From NCBI GenBank assembly GCA_905236805.1, contig CAJOPH010000072.1, positions 1-42,556 on the forward strand: 42,556 nt of DNA, given 5' to 3'. A program made the position numbers and the translations under genes. The stretch comes from an uncultured Eubacterium sp. Lineage in GTDB: Bacteria > Bacillota > Clostridia > Lachnospirales > Lachnospiraceae. Positions 112 through 35,595 of this stretch are shown here, piece by piece. Under the pieces are notes generated by a model. It saw only the letters and a program-made list of their open reading frames with translations, was not told where the DNA came from and searched no databases. Each line of letters opens with the position of its first letter. Within the stretch, counting starts at the first letter, position 1.

Positions 112-797
112 TATTCATGAGTAATGCTCTTAAGAACCGAAAGCTCCATCGTGTATACCTTATCCGCATACTCTTTTACGCCCTCTTCATGGGTAACAAC
201 AAAAACTCCCGCTCCCTCATCCGCAGCCATCCTAAGAAGGGAAAGTACAAATCCTGTATTTTCGTCATCCAAATCTCCGGTGGGCTCATCCGCAAATATA
301 TAAGAGGGTTTTCTTACCAGGGCCCTCGCTATGGCCATCCTCCTCATCTCTCCGCCGGAAAGCTCCCCGGATGAGACATCCCTCAAATGAGCTATTTGCG
401 TCTTTTCCAACAGCCCTAATGCGTAGTTTTCCGAGTCGTTTTCAAGCTCATCATGGATTAGAAATGGGAGCATCACATTTTCCAGTACCGAAAAGTTTCC
501 CAAGGCGCTTTGTCCCTGGGGAACCACTCCCATCTTTTTTCGCCTCAGGGAGGATTGTTCATCATCAGGCAAAGAATAAATATCGATCCCATCCAAAAAG
601 ACGCACCCCGACGAAGGGGGAAGTATGCCGCATAGCATGTTCAAAAAAGTGGTCTTTCCGCTCCCGGACCTTCCCATCAGGGTGACAAACTCTCCTTCAT
701 TCAATGAAAAATCCGTTTCCTTTACGGCTACGAAGGTATTTGATTTTCCGGTTTTCCTTATGAATCTCTTTGAAATTTTTTTCGCTTCTATTCCCAT
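111..797 (-). CDS. ABC transporter ATP-binding protein (MacB/LolD-type)
   Basis: Walker A GRSGSGKTT, signature SGGEMRR, Walker B YIFADEPTGDLD. Confidence 0.93.
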   Translation of the reverse strand: MGIEAKKISKRFIRKTGKSNTFVAVKETDFSLNEGEFVTLMGRSGSGKTTFLNMLCGILPPSSGCVFLDGIDIYSLPDDEQSSLRRKKMGVVPQGQSALGNFSVLENVMLPFLIHDELENDSENYALGLLEKTQIAHLRDVSSGELSGGEMRRMAIARALVRKPSYIFADEPTGDLDDENTGFVLSLLRMAADEGAGVFVVTHEEGVKEYADKVYTMELSVLKSITHE

Positions 798-854
798 GCC
801 CCTATTCCCATGACTCTATTCCCACGCTATTATTCCCATGTTTCTATTCCCATC
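789..854 (-). repeat. Five tandem repeats with exact 14-bp period at the ATPase translation start
   Basis: TATTCCCAT/CG/C units begin at 789, 803, 817, 831 and 845 on the plus strand; minus-strand unit is ATGGGAATAnnnnC. Confidence 0.95.
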
Positions 855-2043
855 AGTTCCCCTCTCTTAATACGGTTCCGGCATCTATTCTGCTAAGCCG
901 TACCGCGCTTATCCCTGCGCTGATGGCCCCCGCCGACACGGACAAGAGGAAAGATCCCACAAAAATCCCCACCAGACTCCCTGCGCCAGGCATAAGGAAA
1001 GGAAGACCCATGAGATCTTCTATCAGTGTCCTAAAAGGCACCATTATCAAAAGACCGAGCAAAGCGCCCAAAAGACCCCCTATGCCTATGAGGATCCCCG
1101 CCTCTTTCATCACCAGGGAAAGAAGCTTTTTCCTTGAGGCTCCAATGACCCTCATTATGGCAAATTCCCTCTTTCGTTCATTGGTGATCATGGCAAACGA
1201 AATGATCATGATCACGGCACACAGGACCCAAAGCGCAACAATAAGAATACCTATCACAGAAGATGTTCCCTTAAGGCTCATCTGGACATCCGTTATCATA
1301 TCATCCGTCTTTACCGCCACTACTTTCCTGACGTGAAGGTTTATGTCATTTAGCACCTCATCTACCGTATATCCTTCCGCTACCTTGATAAGGACACAGG
1401 AAACCACATTGTCAGGATCTACGTCATATAGATTCATCTTTTTTCCCACCGACGATGATATGAGCTCTTTTATGGTCTCCTCGGAAGTATATACGGTAGT
1501 ATCCATGGATGTTCCTGTCTTGTCAAGCTTTGCCACCACACTACAGTCCATGTCATAAAAGGTAAGTGTATCACCGACAAAGGCATTCAGGTCATTTCCC
1601 ACCACGATGTCCATTTTTTCAAGGTCTTTTCCATAGCTTTTTAATATCCAGGGCTGAACCGTAAAGTCGCTTTCGGGTTCTATCCCTATTATTTCCACGG
1701 GTATGGAACAGCAAGAAGAACTTAACGATGCCAGGTAAAACTGCGCGGAAATATTTCCTATGCCATCTAAGGACTTTATCTTGTCATAATATTTTTCATC
1801 CATGTAAAAATAGCCGGTATTTCCCTGGAGAACTATCCCTGAAAGGTTTGCCTTGGTGGTAGCCTCGTAAGGAACTACCATGATGTCAGCCCCCAGTCTG
1901 TCCTCCAGGGAAGAAAAACCATTCTTAAGCGAAAAAATCATAAAAGACCCCGAAAGCACCGCAAAGCTAAGAAGGAAGGATATGAAACAAAGCGCAAAGC
2001 TTCTTAAGGGTTTGTTTTTTATATTGGTAAGATAGATTCTCAT
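853..2043 (-). CDS. ABC transporter permease, FtsX/MacB family
   Basis: N-terminal TM, large extracytoplasmic domain, C-terminal FtsX-like TMs (RKREFAIMRVIGASRKKL). Confidence 0.9.
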   Translation of the reverse strand: MRIYLTNIKNKPLRSFALCFISFLLSFAVLSGSFMIFSLKNGFSSLEDRLGADIMVVPYEATTKANLSGIVLQGNTGYFYMDEKYYDKIKSLDGIGNISAQFYLASLSSSCCSIPVEIIGIEPESDFTVQPWILKSYGKDLEKMDIVVGNDLNAFVGDTLTFYDMDCSVVAKLDKTGTSMDTTVYTSEETIKELISSSVGKKMNLYDVDPDNVVSCVLIKVAEGYTVDEVLNDINLHVRKVVAVKTDDMITDVQMSLKGTSSVIGILIVALWVLCAVIMIISFAMITNERKREFAIMRVIGASRKKLLSLVMKEAGILIGIGGLLGALLGLLIMVPFRTLIEDLMGLPFLMPGAGSLVGIFVGSFLLSVSAGAISAGISAVRLSRIDAGTVLREGN

Positions 2044-17537: not shown

Positions 17538-18976
17538 GCGGTAAATCCCTCCCTGCCAAGGATATAGTCTATAAACTGCCGGGCACACCTTCCCGAATAC
17601 CCCCCGTGTGCGACCTCCCATTTATTCGCCTCTTCCAAAAGCTCATTTTCAGGCATTTTGCAGCCGTTTCTTATGGCAAGGATCTTGACCATTTCCCTGA
17701 ATTCCGTGGAAGATGGCTTTCCATAATAAATCTGCATCCCGAAGCGGGCAGCAAGGGAAGTTTTTTCCTGCACCGTATCAGATGTATGCATGTCTTCGTC
17801 CCTGTCGTTTTTGTCAGATACACTCTCCCTAATAAGGTGCCTTCTGTTCGATGTCGCATAGATAAGGACATTGGAAGGACGAACCTCCAGCCCCCCTTCT
17901 ATAACGGCCTTTAAGTATTTGTAATCGGTCTCAAATTCTTCAAAGGAAAGATCGTCCATGAAAAGAATGAATTTATAGTTTCTTGGCTTTAGCGAGGATA
18001 TTATCCCGTTTATTTCCCTAAACTGGTGCTTATATATCTCTATCACCCTAAGGCCGTCCTTGTAATATCTGTTCATAATGGCCTTTACGGAAGAGGACTT
18101 GCCTGTTCCCGCATCACCGTAGAGAAGGCAGTTGTTGGCAGGAAGGCCCTTAAGGAAGCTTTCCGTATTTTCGATCAGCTTTTGCTTTGCGTATTCATAC
18201 CCGATAAGGTCATCCAAATCCATTGAAGAAACATTTTCAATGGGGATAATGGATGTTTCATCATCACCATCTATCACCCTGAAAGCCTTGTGAAGACCTA
18301 AAGCTCCTACCCCGTAATCCTTATAAAAACCCGTACAGTAGTCCTTAAATTCCATGGCATTATCGGTATTGGCAAGTATCTTTGACAGGTGGACTATGCT
18401 ATCTCTTATGTCAGGGTTAAAGGAGATTACCCCTTCATCGGAAGACCTCCTGTAATTTGCTATCACGGGGTAAAGCATAACACCGCAGGTATCTGCCACC
18501 TGACCCAGCGGATAGTCGAAAAGGGATTTTAAGATCTCAAAATCGTGAAGGGCTATTTCATTGATGCTTCCATCCACCATACCTCTTCCTTCACATGAAA
18601 GGCTGTAGGGGTTTTCGTGTGTCACTATTAAAAATGTCAGGTAATCCTGCCAAAGGTTTCCCTCGAATCCAAACCTCTGGGCATAGTCAATGAGACCTCC
18701 AAACACCTCATAAAACGTGGTCCTTATATCCCAGGCGTCATCATCGTCATCCCAGTCGTCATCATCGTCATCGTCCCAGTCATCATCGTCGTCATCAGGC
18801 AAAATATCATCCTCATAGTCATGTATGATCTCCCATACACTGTCAAAAATCTCCCCCTCTGCAAAGTCCCTGAAAAGTATAAGTTTATCCTCATCGTGCA
18901 TAAACCTGTCAATCTCCTTTATCTTGTGGAATCTGTACTCACCGGATTTGTTTTGAAACATGAAAAATCTAGCCAT
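17534..18976 (-). CDS. AAA-type ATPase, DUF815-like, with Asp/Trp-rich repeat
   Basis: LLYGDAGTGKSSSVKA Walker A, FILFMDDLSFE Walker B, VLIYATSNRRHLI; DDDDDDWDDDDDDDWDDDDDAWD tract. Confidence 0.85.
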   Translation of the reverse strand: MARFFMFQNKSGEYRFHKIKEIDRFMHDEDKLILFRDFAEGEIFDSVWEIIHDYEDDILPDDDDDDWDDDDDDDWDDDDDAWDIRTTFYEVFGGLIDYAQRFGFEGNLWQDYLTFLIVTHENPYSLSCEGRGMVDGSINEIALHDFEILKSLFDYPLGQVADTCGVMLYPVIANYRRSSDEGVISFNPDIRDSIVHLSKILANTDNAMEFKDYCTGFYKDYGVGALGLHKAFRVIDGDDETSIIPIENVSSMDLDDLIGYEYAKQKLIENTESFLKGLPANNCLLYGDAGTGKSSSVKAIMNRYYKDGLRVIEIYKHQFREINGIISSLKPRNYKFILFMDDLSFEEFETDYKYLKAVIEGGLEVRPSNVLIYATSNRRHLIRESVSDKNDRDEDMHTSDTVQEKTSLAARFGMQIYYGKPSSTEFREMVKILAIRNGCKMPENELLEEANKWEVAHGGYSGRCARQFIDYILGREGFTA

Positions 18977-23100: not shown

Positions 23101-24591
23101 CCGTATTCCCGTCAGCTTTTCTATCGAATATGGAATCGGTGTCTTTGGGTTTACAAAGGTAGAAAATTCATCAACTATTATTCCGTTTTCTACCTTTACC
23201 GCCCCTATCTCTATTATTTTATTTTTCTTTGCGCTAAAGCCCGTGGTCTCTATGTCAAATACCACGTACGAATCCTTAAGGCTTTGGTTTTTGGAATGCT
23301 TCGCTATATTTTCCAGGTCATTTACCAGATATCCTTCACAGCCATATATCACCTTGAAATCAGGGTCTCTTCCCACCATATGGTAGGCGTCCGTAAAGGC
23401 CTGCACCACACCGTGGTCGGTAATGGCCAAGGCCTTGTGTCCCCATTTTTTCGCCTGCGCTATAATGTCTGTAACATCAGATACCGCATCTAAGTTGCTC
23501 ATCTTGGTATGGCAGTGAAGCTCTACCCTTTTTTCCGGGGCTTCATCCATGCGCTCTTTCCTGAAAGGCAAGATCTCCTTTATGCCATAAATCCTGTCAA
23601 ATACAACCTCCCTGTCATAATCAGAATACGAAGCGTTTCCCTTTACGAGGATGGTTTTTCCCCCGGTAAGATAAGGCCTTACGTCATCTGCCTCATGTAC
23701 CTTTGAGAAGATTTTTAAGTTTATGCTGTCTGTATAATCCGTTACGGATATGGTAAAGATTACCTTGTCCCCGCGCCTGGTGGTTATTTCCTCAATATCG
23801 AATATCTCACCCTTTATTACTATATTTTCGATGTCTCCCGTGATCTCGGAAATGGATATTATGCAATCTTCCTGAAAATCCTTCCCATATAAAACATCCG
23901 GATGCTTTGATCTGTATTTTTGCCGTGGTGTCAATTCATTGTCATCAGATAACGCTTCTTTGTCATCAGATGGCGATTTTTTGTCATTAGATGGCGCCTC
24001 TTCTTCATTTGATGTGGGTGGGATGTTTTCATTGTCTTTGGCAACGGACATTTCCAAAGCAGGCTCATTTTCATGCTCTTTTTTTTCAGGCAGATAAAAC
24101 TCCTGCCTTATCTCCACATCCACTCCGCATTTTTCTGCAATTATATGCTTTAACGCACCGGTAAGCTCTTTGGATTTTTCATCCTTCACCACTCCCTTTG
24201 GGATTTTTAGCATCATTATCCTTTCATCGGGAAAGGTGATTTTGCTCTTCCTGTAGAGATAGTAATCGATCCTGCTGGTAAATTTAAGTTCATCCTCTAT
24301 GCTTTTTTTGTACATATCATAGAGGCTCTTAGCGGTATATTGGTCAGACAATGCAAAATGAGGCACTATCTTAAGGTCTATTTTTTTCCACTGGGAAAGA
24401 TTTGCCTTTAGTTCGTCCTCCATCTCCAGTATCGATGAAAACGGGATAAGGTGGGAGCTTTTTATGTGGATTATCATACGGGTCCATTTAGAATCCCTTG
24501 ATATCTTTAGTACCTCTACGTCCTCAAAGATATCCTTTAAGTCCCCCTTGGGTTCATATTTAGGAAATACATCAAGAAAATTCTTAGTCAT
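20191..24591 (-). CDS. polC: DNA polymerase III PolC-type alpha subunit
   Basis: 1466 aa; PHP domain (ELHCHTKMSNLDAVS), inserted DEDD exonuclease (YVVFDIETTGFS), C-family polymerase core (KEPDIDLNFSGEYQ). Confidence 0.98.
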   Translation of the reverse strand: MTKNFLDVFPKYEPKGDLKDIFEDVEVLKISRDSKWTRMIIHIKSSHLIPFSSILEMEDELKANLSQWKKIDLKIVPHFALSDQYTAKSLYDMYKKSIEDELKFTSRIDYYLYRKSKITFPDERIMMLKIPKGVVKDEKSKELTGALKHIIAEKCGVDVEIRQEFYLPEKKEHENEPALEMSVAKDNENIPPTSNEEEAPSNDKKSPSDDKEALSDDNELTPRQKYRSKHPDVLYGKDFQEDCIISISEITGDIENIVIKGEIFDIEEITTRRGDKVIFTISVTDYTDSINLKIFSKVHEADDVRPYLTGGKTILVKGNASYSDYDREVVFDRIYGIKEILPFRKERMDEAPEKRVELHCHTKMSNLDAVSDVTDIIAQAKKWGHKALAITDHGVVQAFTDAYHMVGRDPDFKVIYGCEGYLVNDLENIAKHSKNQSLKDSYVVFDIETTGFSAKKNKIIEIGAVKVENGIIVDEFSTFVNPKTPIPYSIEKLTGIRDVDVSDADTIDHILPKFMEFCKGSSLVAHNASFDTSFIRVNCENLDIPYDFTEVDTVGMSRLVLQRLKRFKLDQVAKELKIPLEGHHRAVNDARCTAQIFIELCKRLDKQGVYTLDEMNRAAHMSDDSIKKLYSYHVIILAKNEIGRINLYRLVSESHLKYFNSRPLIPKSLLEKYREGLIIGSACEAGELYRKIVNNRPYDEVTETASFYDYLEIQPVGNNAFLLKEEGNGIDTVEDLQEINKKIVSIGEKLEKPVVATCDVHFLNPEDEIYRRIIMAGQKFKDADEQPPLYLHTTQEMLDEFSYLGYEKAYEVVVKNTNMIADMCDVISPVRPDKCPPVIENSDVELRHLCYEKAKSMYGDPLPALVTERLERELNSIISNGFAVMYIIAQRLVKHSNDDGYLVGSRGSVGSSFVATMSGITEVNPLPPHYYCTSCHYVDFDSDEVKAHAGGAGCDLPDKPCPVCGKKLLKDGFDIPFETFLGFKGNKEPDIDLNFSGEYQSQAHAYTEVIFGKGQTFRAGTIGTLAEKNAFGFVKNYFEDRGIKKRKCEMNRLLKGCVGVRRTTGQHPGGIIVLPHGESIYSFTPIQHPANKDVDIITTHFDYHSIDHNLLKLDILGHDDPTMIKMLEDETDIDAKEIPLDDREVMSLFKSPEALGVSAKDINVSTGSLGVPEFGTKFVIGMLEDTKPSTFADLVRISGLSHGTNVWLDNAQTLILAGKATISTAICTRDDIMSYLIGKGMESELSFTIMENVRKGKGLTGEFEEEMKKNGVPDWYIWSCNRISYMFPKAHAAAYVMMAWRIAWFKINYPLQYYAAYFSIRAKKKFDYEIMTMGKDRLSYHMEDFKRRSDNKELSQAEEGTMDAMQNVYEMYQRGFEFAPIDIYEAKSTRFRVIEGKLMPSLDTIPGLGESVAVNIETAAKEGPFLSMDDFRKRAKVGNSMTDKLKELGILVGLPETNQISLFDMV

Positions 24592-34896: not shown

Positions 34897-35595
34897 TCAT
34901 TTCAAAATTTCGGAAATTATTTCGTCATAGCTCATGTTGGAATTTACGCTGAAGGATATCCCTTCCCGCAGCGATGTGTCATAACCTTTTGACACCATGT
35001 ACTCATCAAAATCCGAAGCATCCTTTATGATGCCGGCCTCCTGGAGCTTTTTGGCTACGTCGAATGAATTGTCAGACCCCGTGATCTTTAATGTAAGCTC
35101 ATGGTATGAGTCATCATCTGTGCCTTCTTCGGAAGATCTGTCTGTCCCTGAGGATGAATCTGTACTTGAAGATGAATCATTGCCTGAGGATGTATCTGTC
35201 TCGGAAGAGGTATCTTCCTCATCCCGGCTTTTGGTTTCATCCTTTTCATCAGAGGCGGATGCATCTTTGTCATCACCGGTATCTTCGGAATTGGATTGTG
35301 TATTATTGGTAATCGTGCCGGTATCCGTGTCATTTTTATTGTAAACACCTACCCTCCCGGCATTTTGCCTTTCATATTCATCCACGGTCATGGAATCATC
35401 CGCATCCCCCGATACATATACATATCCCAGCTCCGTAGCCCTTTTTACGGCGGATTTGTCGTTTAATATACCGCCATGGCTGTTTATCGCAAATATAAAG
35501 ATAAGCGTGGTTATTAATATACCCACGCCAATCCCCCTTATATAATATTTGAATCTCAAACCTATCTCCTGCCTATCTCCTGGATCTTTCCTCAT
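34897..35595 (-). CDS. Membrane-anchored protein with Ser/Asp-rich linker and MltG/YceG N-domain-like C-terminus; no MltG catalytic domain visible
   Basis: N-terminal TM; LTLKITGSDNSFDVAKKLQEAGIIKDASDFDEYMVSKGYDTSLREGISFSVNSNMSYDEIISEIL. Confidence 0.65.
   Translation of the reverse strand: MRKDPGDRQEIGLRFKYYIRGIGVGILITTLIFIFAINSHGGILNDKSAVKRATELGYVYVSGDADDSMTVDEYERQNAGRVGVYNKNDTDTGTITNNTQSNSEDTGDDKDASASDEKDETKSRDEEDTSSETDTSSGNDSSSSTDSSSGTDRSSEEGTDDDSYHELTLKITGSDNSFDVAKKLQEAGIIKDASDFDEYMVSKGYDTSLREGISFSVNSNMSYDEIISEILK

Follow-up and report, generated by a model that had tools for sequence, protein, structure and literature searches.

The locus and its array

The window, i.e. the whole stretch of 42,556 nt analysed here, carries on its minus strand an FtsX-like permease gene followed by the gene of an ABC transporter ATPase (Table 1). 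An ABC_tran ATPase adjoining an FtsX-like permease identifies the pair as an ABC exporter of the LolD/MacB type. The ATPase scores best among LolD/FtsE/MacB-like models, yet falls under every equivalog cut-off listed, and a substrate was not assigned. Upstream of the pair lie genes for a DUF4418 protein and a transglutaminase-like protein.

The junction between the two genes is occupied by five head-to-tail units of 14 bp, 70 nt in total. A preliminary description had placed this array at 789-854 and called the repeats exact. The number and arrangement of the units stand, whereas the span is corrected to 784-853 and the exactness is lost, since no two units are identical and the third begins with GTG. 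Nine of the 14 columns (2-9 and 14) are invariant across all five units, column 1 is A or G, and columns 10-13 vary. The rest of that description holds: the permease stop TGA (853-855) overlaps the first start, ATG1, as TGATG, the first four units open the four mini-ORFs that it listed, and only the fifth opens the ATPase.

Table 1. Features of the permease-ATPase junction (window coordinates)
Feature	Position	Strand	Sequence	Remarks
ABC transporter ATPase, 228 aa	111..797	-		LolD/MacB-like group; ABC_tran E 6.7e-31
FtsX-like ABC permease, 396 aa	853..2043	-		Pfam PF02687 E 1.1e-15; upstream partner of the ATPase
Shine-Dalgarno	859..867	-	AGAGAGGGG	within the permease 3' end; serves ATG1; anti-SD duplex -8.2 kcal/mol
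Unit 1	840..853	-	ATGGGAATAGAAAC	mini-ORF1 MGIETWE*, 830-853; ancestral start position
Unit 2	826..839	-	ATGGGAATAATAGC	mini-ORF2 MGIIAWE*, 816-839
Unit 3	812..825	-	GTGGGAATAGAGTC	mini-ORF3 VGIESWE*, 802-825; start GTG
Unit 4	798..811	-	ATGGGAATAGGGGC	mini-ORF4 MGIGAWE*, 788-811
Unit 5	784..797	-	ATGGGAATAGAAGC	identical to the array consensus; opens the ATPase (MGIEAKK)

The array is not a product of chance. Tandem Repeats Finder calls it as 14 x 4.8. Its 9 invariant columns compare with 3 in the best 5x14 window obtained from five Markov genomes of 1.27 Mb. A pair of adjacent units occurs in the organism's own genome at the ATPase start only, three consecutive units occur at this site only among the 397 family genomes searched, and a scan of viral contigs for the array was empty. 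The genome is metagenome-assembled and fragmented (102 contigs), which might raise the suspicion of an assembly artefact. We consider this hardly credible: the spacers differ between units, the array is shorter than a usual read, and a short-read assembly is unlikely to invent it.

Within the window, in-frame (3n) arrays, an acidic stretch included, lie in coding sequence at 18728-18796, 23935-24002, and 35141-35199.

Orthologous junctions have a single start

Orthologs of the permease and the ATPase were sought in the family, in its relatives, and in named genomes, and their junctions were inspected. At eight loci with 46-59% permease identity (L034-L041), the distances from permease stop to ATPase start are 0, +11, +11, -1, +3, 0, +27, and 0 nt. 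The spacing is about -1 to +6 nt in seven further pairs (L063-L069), mostly from MAGs of rumen Clostridiales and Ruminococcus, and the pairs of L004-L005 are also closely spaced. The array is absent from the orthologous junctions with at least 46% permease identity, where a single start abuts the permease stop. In the comparison within the genus, the operon was found in genome G001 only, with a junction of -1 nt and no array. The permease 3' end of nearly all these junctions holds a Shine-Dalgarno-like stretch, as it does in the window.

The N-terminus of the ATPase aligns with those of its orthologs from the methionine of unit 5 (MGIEAKKISKRF / MVLKAEGVSKQF) and has the same length. The Shine-Dalgarno at 859-867 and the TGATG overlap both belong to ATG1, but the conserved protein begins at unit 5, with its frame intact from there on. 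ATG1 therefore marks where the ATPase originally started, and an insertion of four units (56 nt) in the lineage of the window has widened the gap between permease and ATPase to 55 nt. The single-copy state in relatives is the one expected for a tandem duplication at a gene edge. The array almost certainly originated by tandem duplication of the ATPase start region: replication slippage or unequal recombination would have multiplied the first 14 nt of the gene. The suggestion that slippage had duplicated the start region, made earlier from the window by itself, is thus well supported by the single starts of the orthologs and by other, unrelated tandem duplications at gene edges in this genome.

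Arrays elsewhere in the genome

The organism's own genome was surveyed over about 74% of its length, with 1.255 Mb of non-N sequence. Of 1047 called genes, 9 have a start and 11 a stop that lies within a tandem duplication passing a strict threshold; in the controls (two 200-kb stretches and 385 kb of mixed loci), this holds for no start and one stop over 655 genes. A start-specific enrichment of duplications is therefore rejected, as starts and stops are struck about equally. This equality argues against a start-specific device and is what one would predict for gene edges that simply put up with duplications whose length is not a multiple of three (non-3n). Short same-strand junctions, 26.7 kb in all, hold 11 non-3n arrays by Tandem Repeats Finder, and the remaining intergenic sequence (60.5 kb) holds 9, a density ~2.8-fold higher in the former; these category counts are approximate, because the genes come from a simple caller (the purE-purM junction was counted among the divergent ones, and dnaG among the contig edges). 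The controls hold 4 such arrays in 19.3 kb, three of them from one locus.

Two of the arrays lie in start regions and are unrelated to the one in the window. The first, at the junction of what we take to be purE and purM (L167:1270-1326, contig 24), consists of ~4.4 copies of the 13-bp unit GGAGAATCATGAC; each unit holds an SD-like GGAGA and an ATG, so that the serial mini-ORFs MMPENHAGES*, MPENHDRE*, and MTENDDGD* precede the purM ATG. The second, upstream of and at the start of a presumed dnaG (L161:19629-19689, contig 19; like purE and purM, named from reading the protein sequence), has 2.7 copies of a 23-bp unit containing ATGGAAAATGAC. Its upstream ATGs open mini-ORFs, the longer of which stop 10-18 nt inside dnaG. 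Neither array has a counterpart in the same genus, at the five purM loci or the six dnaG loci inspected. The presence of such arrays at other junctions, with none in the sister species, makes the ATPase array one case of a tendency of this genome, not a device specific to the transporter. As for loss of mismatch repair as the cause, a MutS domain is present, in an open frame of 598 aa near a contig end.

Non-3n arrays were also noted in the short same-strand junctions L158:3378-3457 (14 bp), L171:8588-8637 (13 bp), L186:3935-3972 (11 bp), and L228:16439-16498 (16 bp, with AGGAGG in the unit). Duplications of two to three copies span the starts of four genes which, judging from their N-termini, are presumably gpsA-like (L206:8437-8471), acyl-CoA ligase-like (L236:8550-8582), rlmN-like (L162:16732-16757), and ispD-like (L162:8177-8217).

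Start signals and translation across the array

The preliminary description had the best Shine-Dalgarno before ATG1, and the computed duplexes agree: with an assumed standard 16S tail (the 16S of this genome was not found), pairing there amounts to -8.2 kcal/mol, whereas the remaining starts reach -4.2 to -5.6. A suitably spaced GGGA gives the internal starts weak pairing (-4.2), and ATG5 has the best of them (-5.6). The stops of mini-ORF1, mini-ORF2, and mini-ORF3 lie 4 nt before GTG3, ATG4, and the ATPase ATG5, respectively, and that of mini-ORF4 falls 10 nt inside the ATPase gene. Both the TGATG overlap and these +4-nt steps lie within the stop-to-start distance of about -8 to +10 nt typical of coupled pairs; the direct permease-to-ATPase gap taken alone does not. 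In double reporters of E. coli, a gap of +2 nt reduces reinitiation by 5, 20, or 70%, one of 38 nt by 80-100%, and as little as 15 nt of the upstream gene suffice for reinitiation (PMC10666635). Since 38 nt already has this effect, a bare gap of 55 nt should uncouple the two genes.

We therefore favour, with a probability of about 0.6, the reading that the array is a lineage-specific multiplication of the start region, tolerated through serial restarts that keep the genes coupled. At the ancestral junction, permease and ATPase would have been translated by termination-reinitiation. Each added unit would bring an RTG start, a weak GGGA at Shine-Dalgarno spacing from the start that follows, and a TAR stop that closes the mini-ORF before it, and the insertion would be tolerated because every unit duplicates all three. 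A ribosome finishing the permease at TGATG would translate mini-ORF1, halt, and restart 4 nt further on at GTG3; on ending mini-ORF3, it would restart 4 nt further on at ATG5. Judging from geometry only, this relay from ATG1 over GTG3 to ATG5 may pass ribosomes to the true start. Coupling thus probably survives the 55-nt insertion in a weakened form, and its lower efficiency would reduce the ATPase:permease ratio.

One alternative is a neutral duplication without any relay. Ribosomes would then initiate independently at ATG5, with the GGGA or GGGG of unit 4 serving as a weak Shine-Dalgarno, and the mini-ORFs would have no effect or a mildly inhibitory one. It fits with the rank of ATG5 among the internal starts and with the many intergenic places of this genome that hold non-3n arrays. 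However, the strongest Shine-Dalgarno and the stop overlap both favour ATG1, ribosomes loaded there would cross the array, and the GGGG of unit 4 sits just 1 nt from ATG5, so that we regard this alternative as unlikely.

We also considered an array of sites for an RNA- or DNA-binding regulator, e.g., CsrA; each unit contains one GGA, the core motif of this protein. The genome does encode CsrA (PF02599, E 1.8e-25), and five GGA cores spaced by 14 nt in a start region would suit it. Yet any weak Shine-Dalgarno also contains GGA, the flanks in the array match the CsrA consensus poorly, and the genome has no second copy of the motif array. Moreover, the array region folds no better than its shuffles (z -0.34), which leaves no unusually stable structure to present the sites, and it matched no Rfam family. 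A binding-site array is thus very improbable.

Constraint and copy number

The units depart from the consensus at eight positions, and seven of these are clustered in four adjacent columns (p 0.0043 for random placement and any 4-column window). When eight substitutions are placed at random, all four starts and stops are kept in ~7% of trials, or in 3.6% once trials with premature stops are discarded as well. All of these tests were made post hoc on a single array and are suggestive only. The clustering is a hint that the constant block may be under selection and not purely neutral. The constant block may be read as start, GGGA, and TAR stop, and the variable block as a spacer.

Such retention would suit a selected, adjustable attenuator of translation, in which the share of ribosomes arriving at the ATPase depends on the copy number, especially on whether it is odd or even. 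With an odd count, the +4-nt relay from ATG1 would hit the ATPase start; with an even one, it would end 10 nt inside the gene. The array has five units, an odd count, and its relay ends on the ATPase ATG, while starts, GGGA, and stops are retained as the spacer varies. Against this, the odds of such retention are merely marginal, no copy-number variants are known, the array is limited to the species of the window among the family genomes and ortholog junctions compared, and the other arrays in the genome (periods 13, 23, and 16) share no common design. We hold an attenuator of this kind to be quite unlikely. The broader proposal is that the odd or even count of a serial mini-ORF relay decides whether forward reinitiation lands on the downstream gene, so that slippage could adjust a heritable ATPase:permease ratio, and that several junctions of the genome (purE-purM, dnaG, and others) evolved in the same manner; it strikes us as a long shot.

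Tuning of ATPase translation by copy number through reinitiation is geometrically plausible, and on geometry only, because +4-nt gaps are within the range of reinitiation in E. coli (PMC10666635). A regulated switch is possible and unsupported. In phase-variable repeats, a change in copy number breaks or restores the reading frame; here, the ATPase frame is intact at any whole number of units because every unit has its own start, and this leaves no fixed switch logic. A dedicated regulatory role need not be assumed, and the array looks more like a copying error compatible with translation than like a demonstrated switch.

Relation to known systems

The closest known arrangement is termination-reinitiation at overlapping gene pairs (PMC10666635, PMC6728339). 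The junction resembles it in the TGATG (-1 nt) overlap of permease and ATG1, in that permease and ATPase are subunits of one complex, and in the +4-nt gaps between mini-ORFs, which are in the permissive range. It differs in the four duplicated mini-ORFs that intervene, so that coupling would, by geometry, need two successive reinitiations. In the case of leader minigenes (e.g., axe-txe mg2 and B. subtilis ycbK; PMC8708949), a gene is likewise immediately preceded by very short ORFs that lie in other frames and act in cis through their spacing to the next start. However, those are one or two unrelated minigenes, whereas here four near-identical ones overlap serially and derive from the gene's own start. 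The TAACTGA direct repeats before start codons of Beggiatoaceae, compared here together with long simple sequence repeats, are also short intergenic tandem repeats adjoining start codons, and slippage has been discussed as their source and a translational role as possible (PMC4679880). The Beggiatoaceae repeats consist of a single genome-wide heptamer without start codons, in contrast to arrays that each copy the start of their own gene. Our literature search on tandem duplications of start codons found no direct precedent.

If the relay works, it shows how an insertion much longer than reinitiation usually spans can be accommodated between coupled genes, because the duplicated start brings its own stop and the next start, and the array would offer a natural adjustable series (1-6 units) for measuring serial reinitiation. 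If it fails, the junction still illustrates clearly that gene edges can tolerate slippage, and it warns against taking repeats at start codons for switches.
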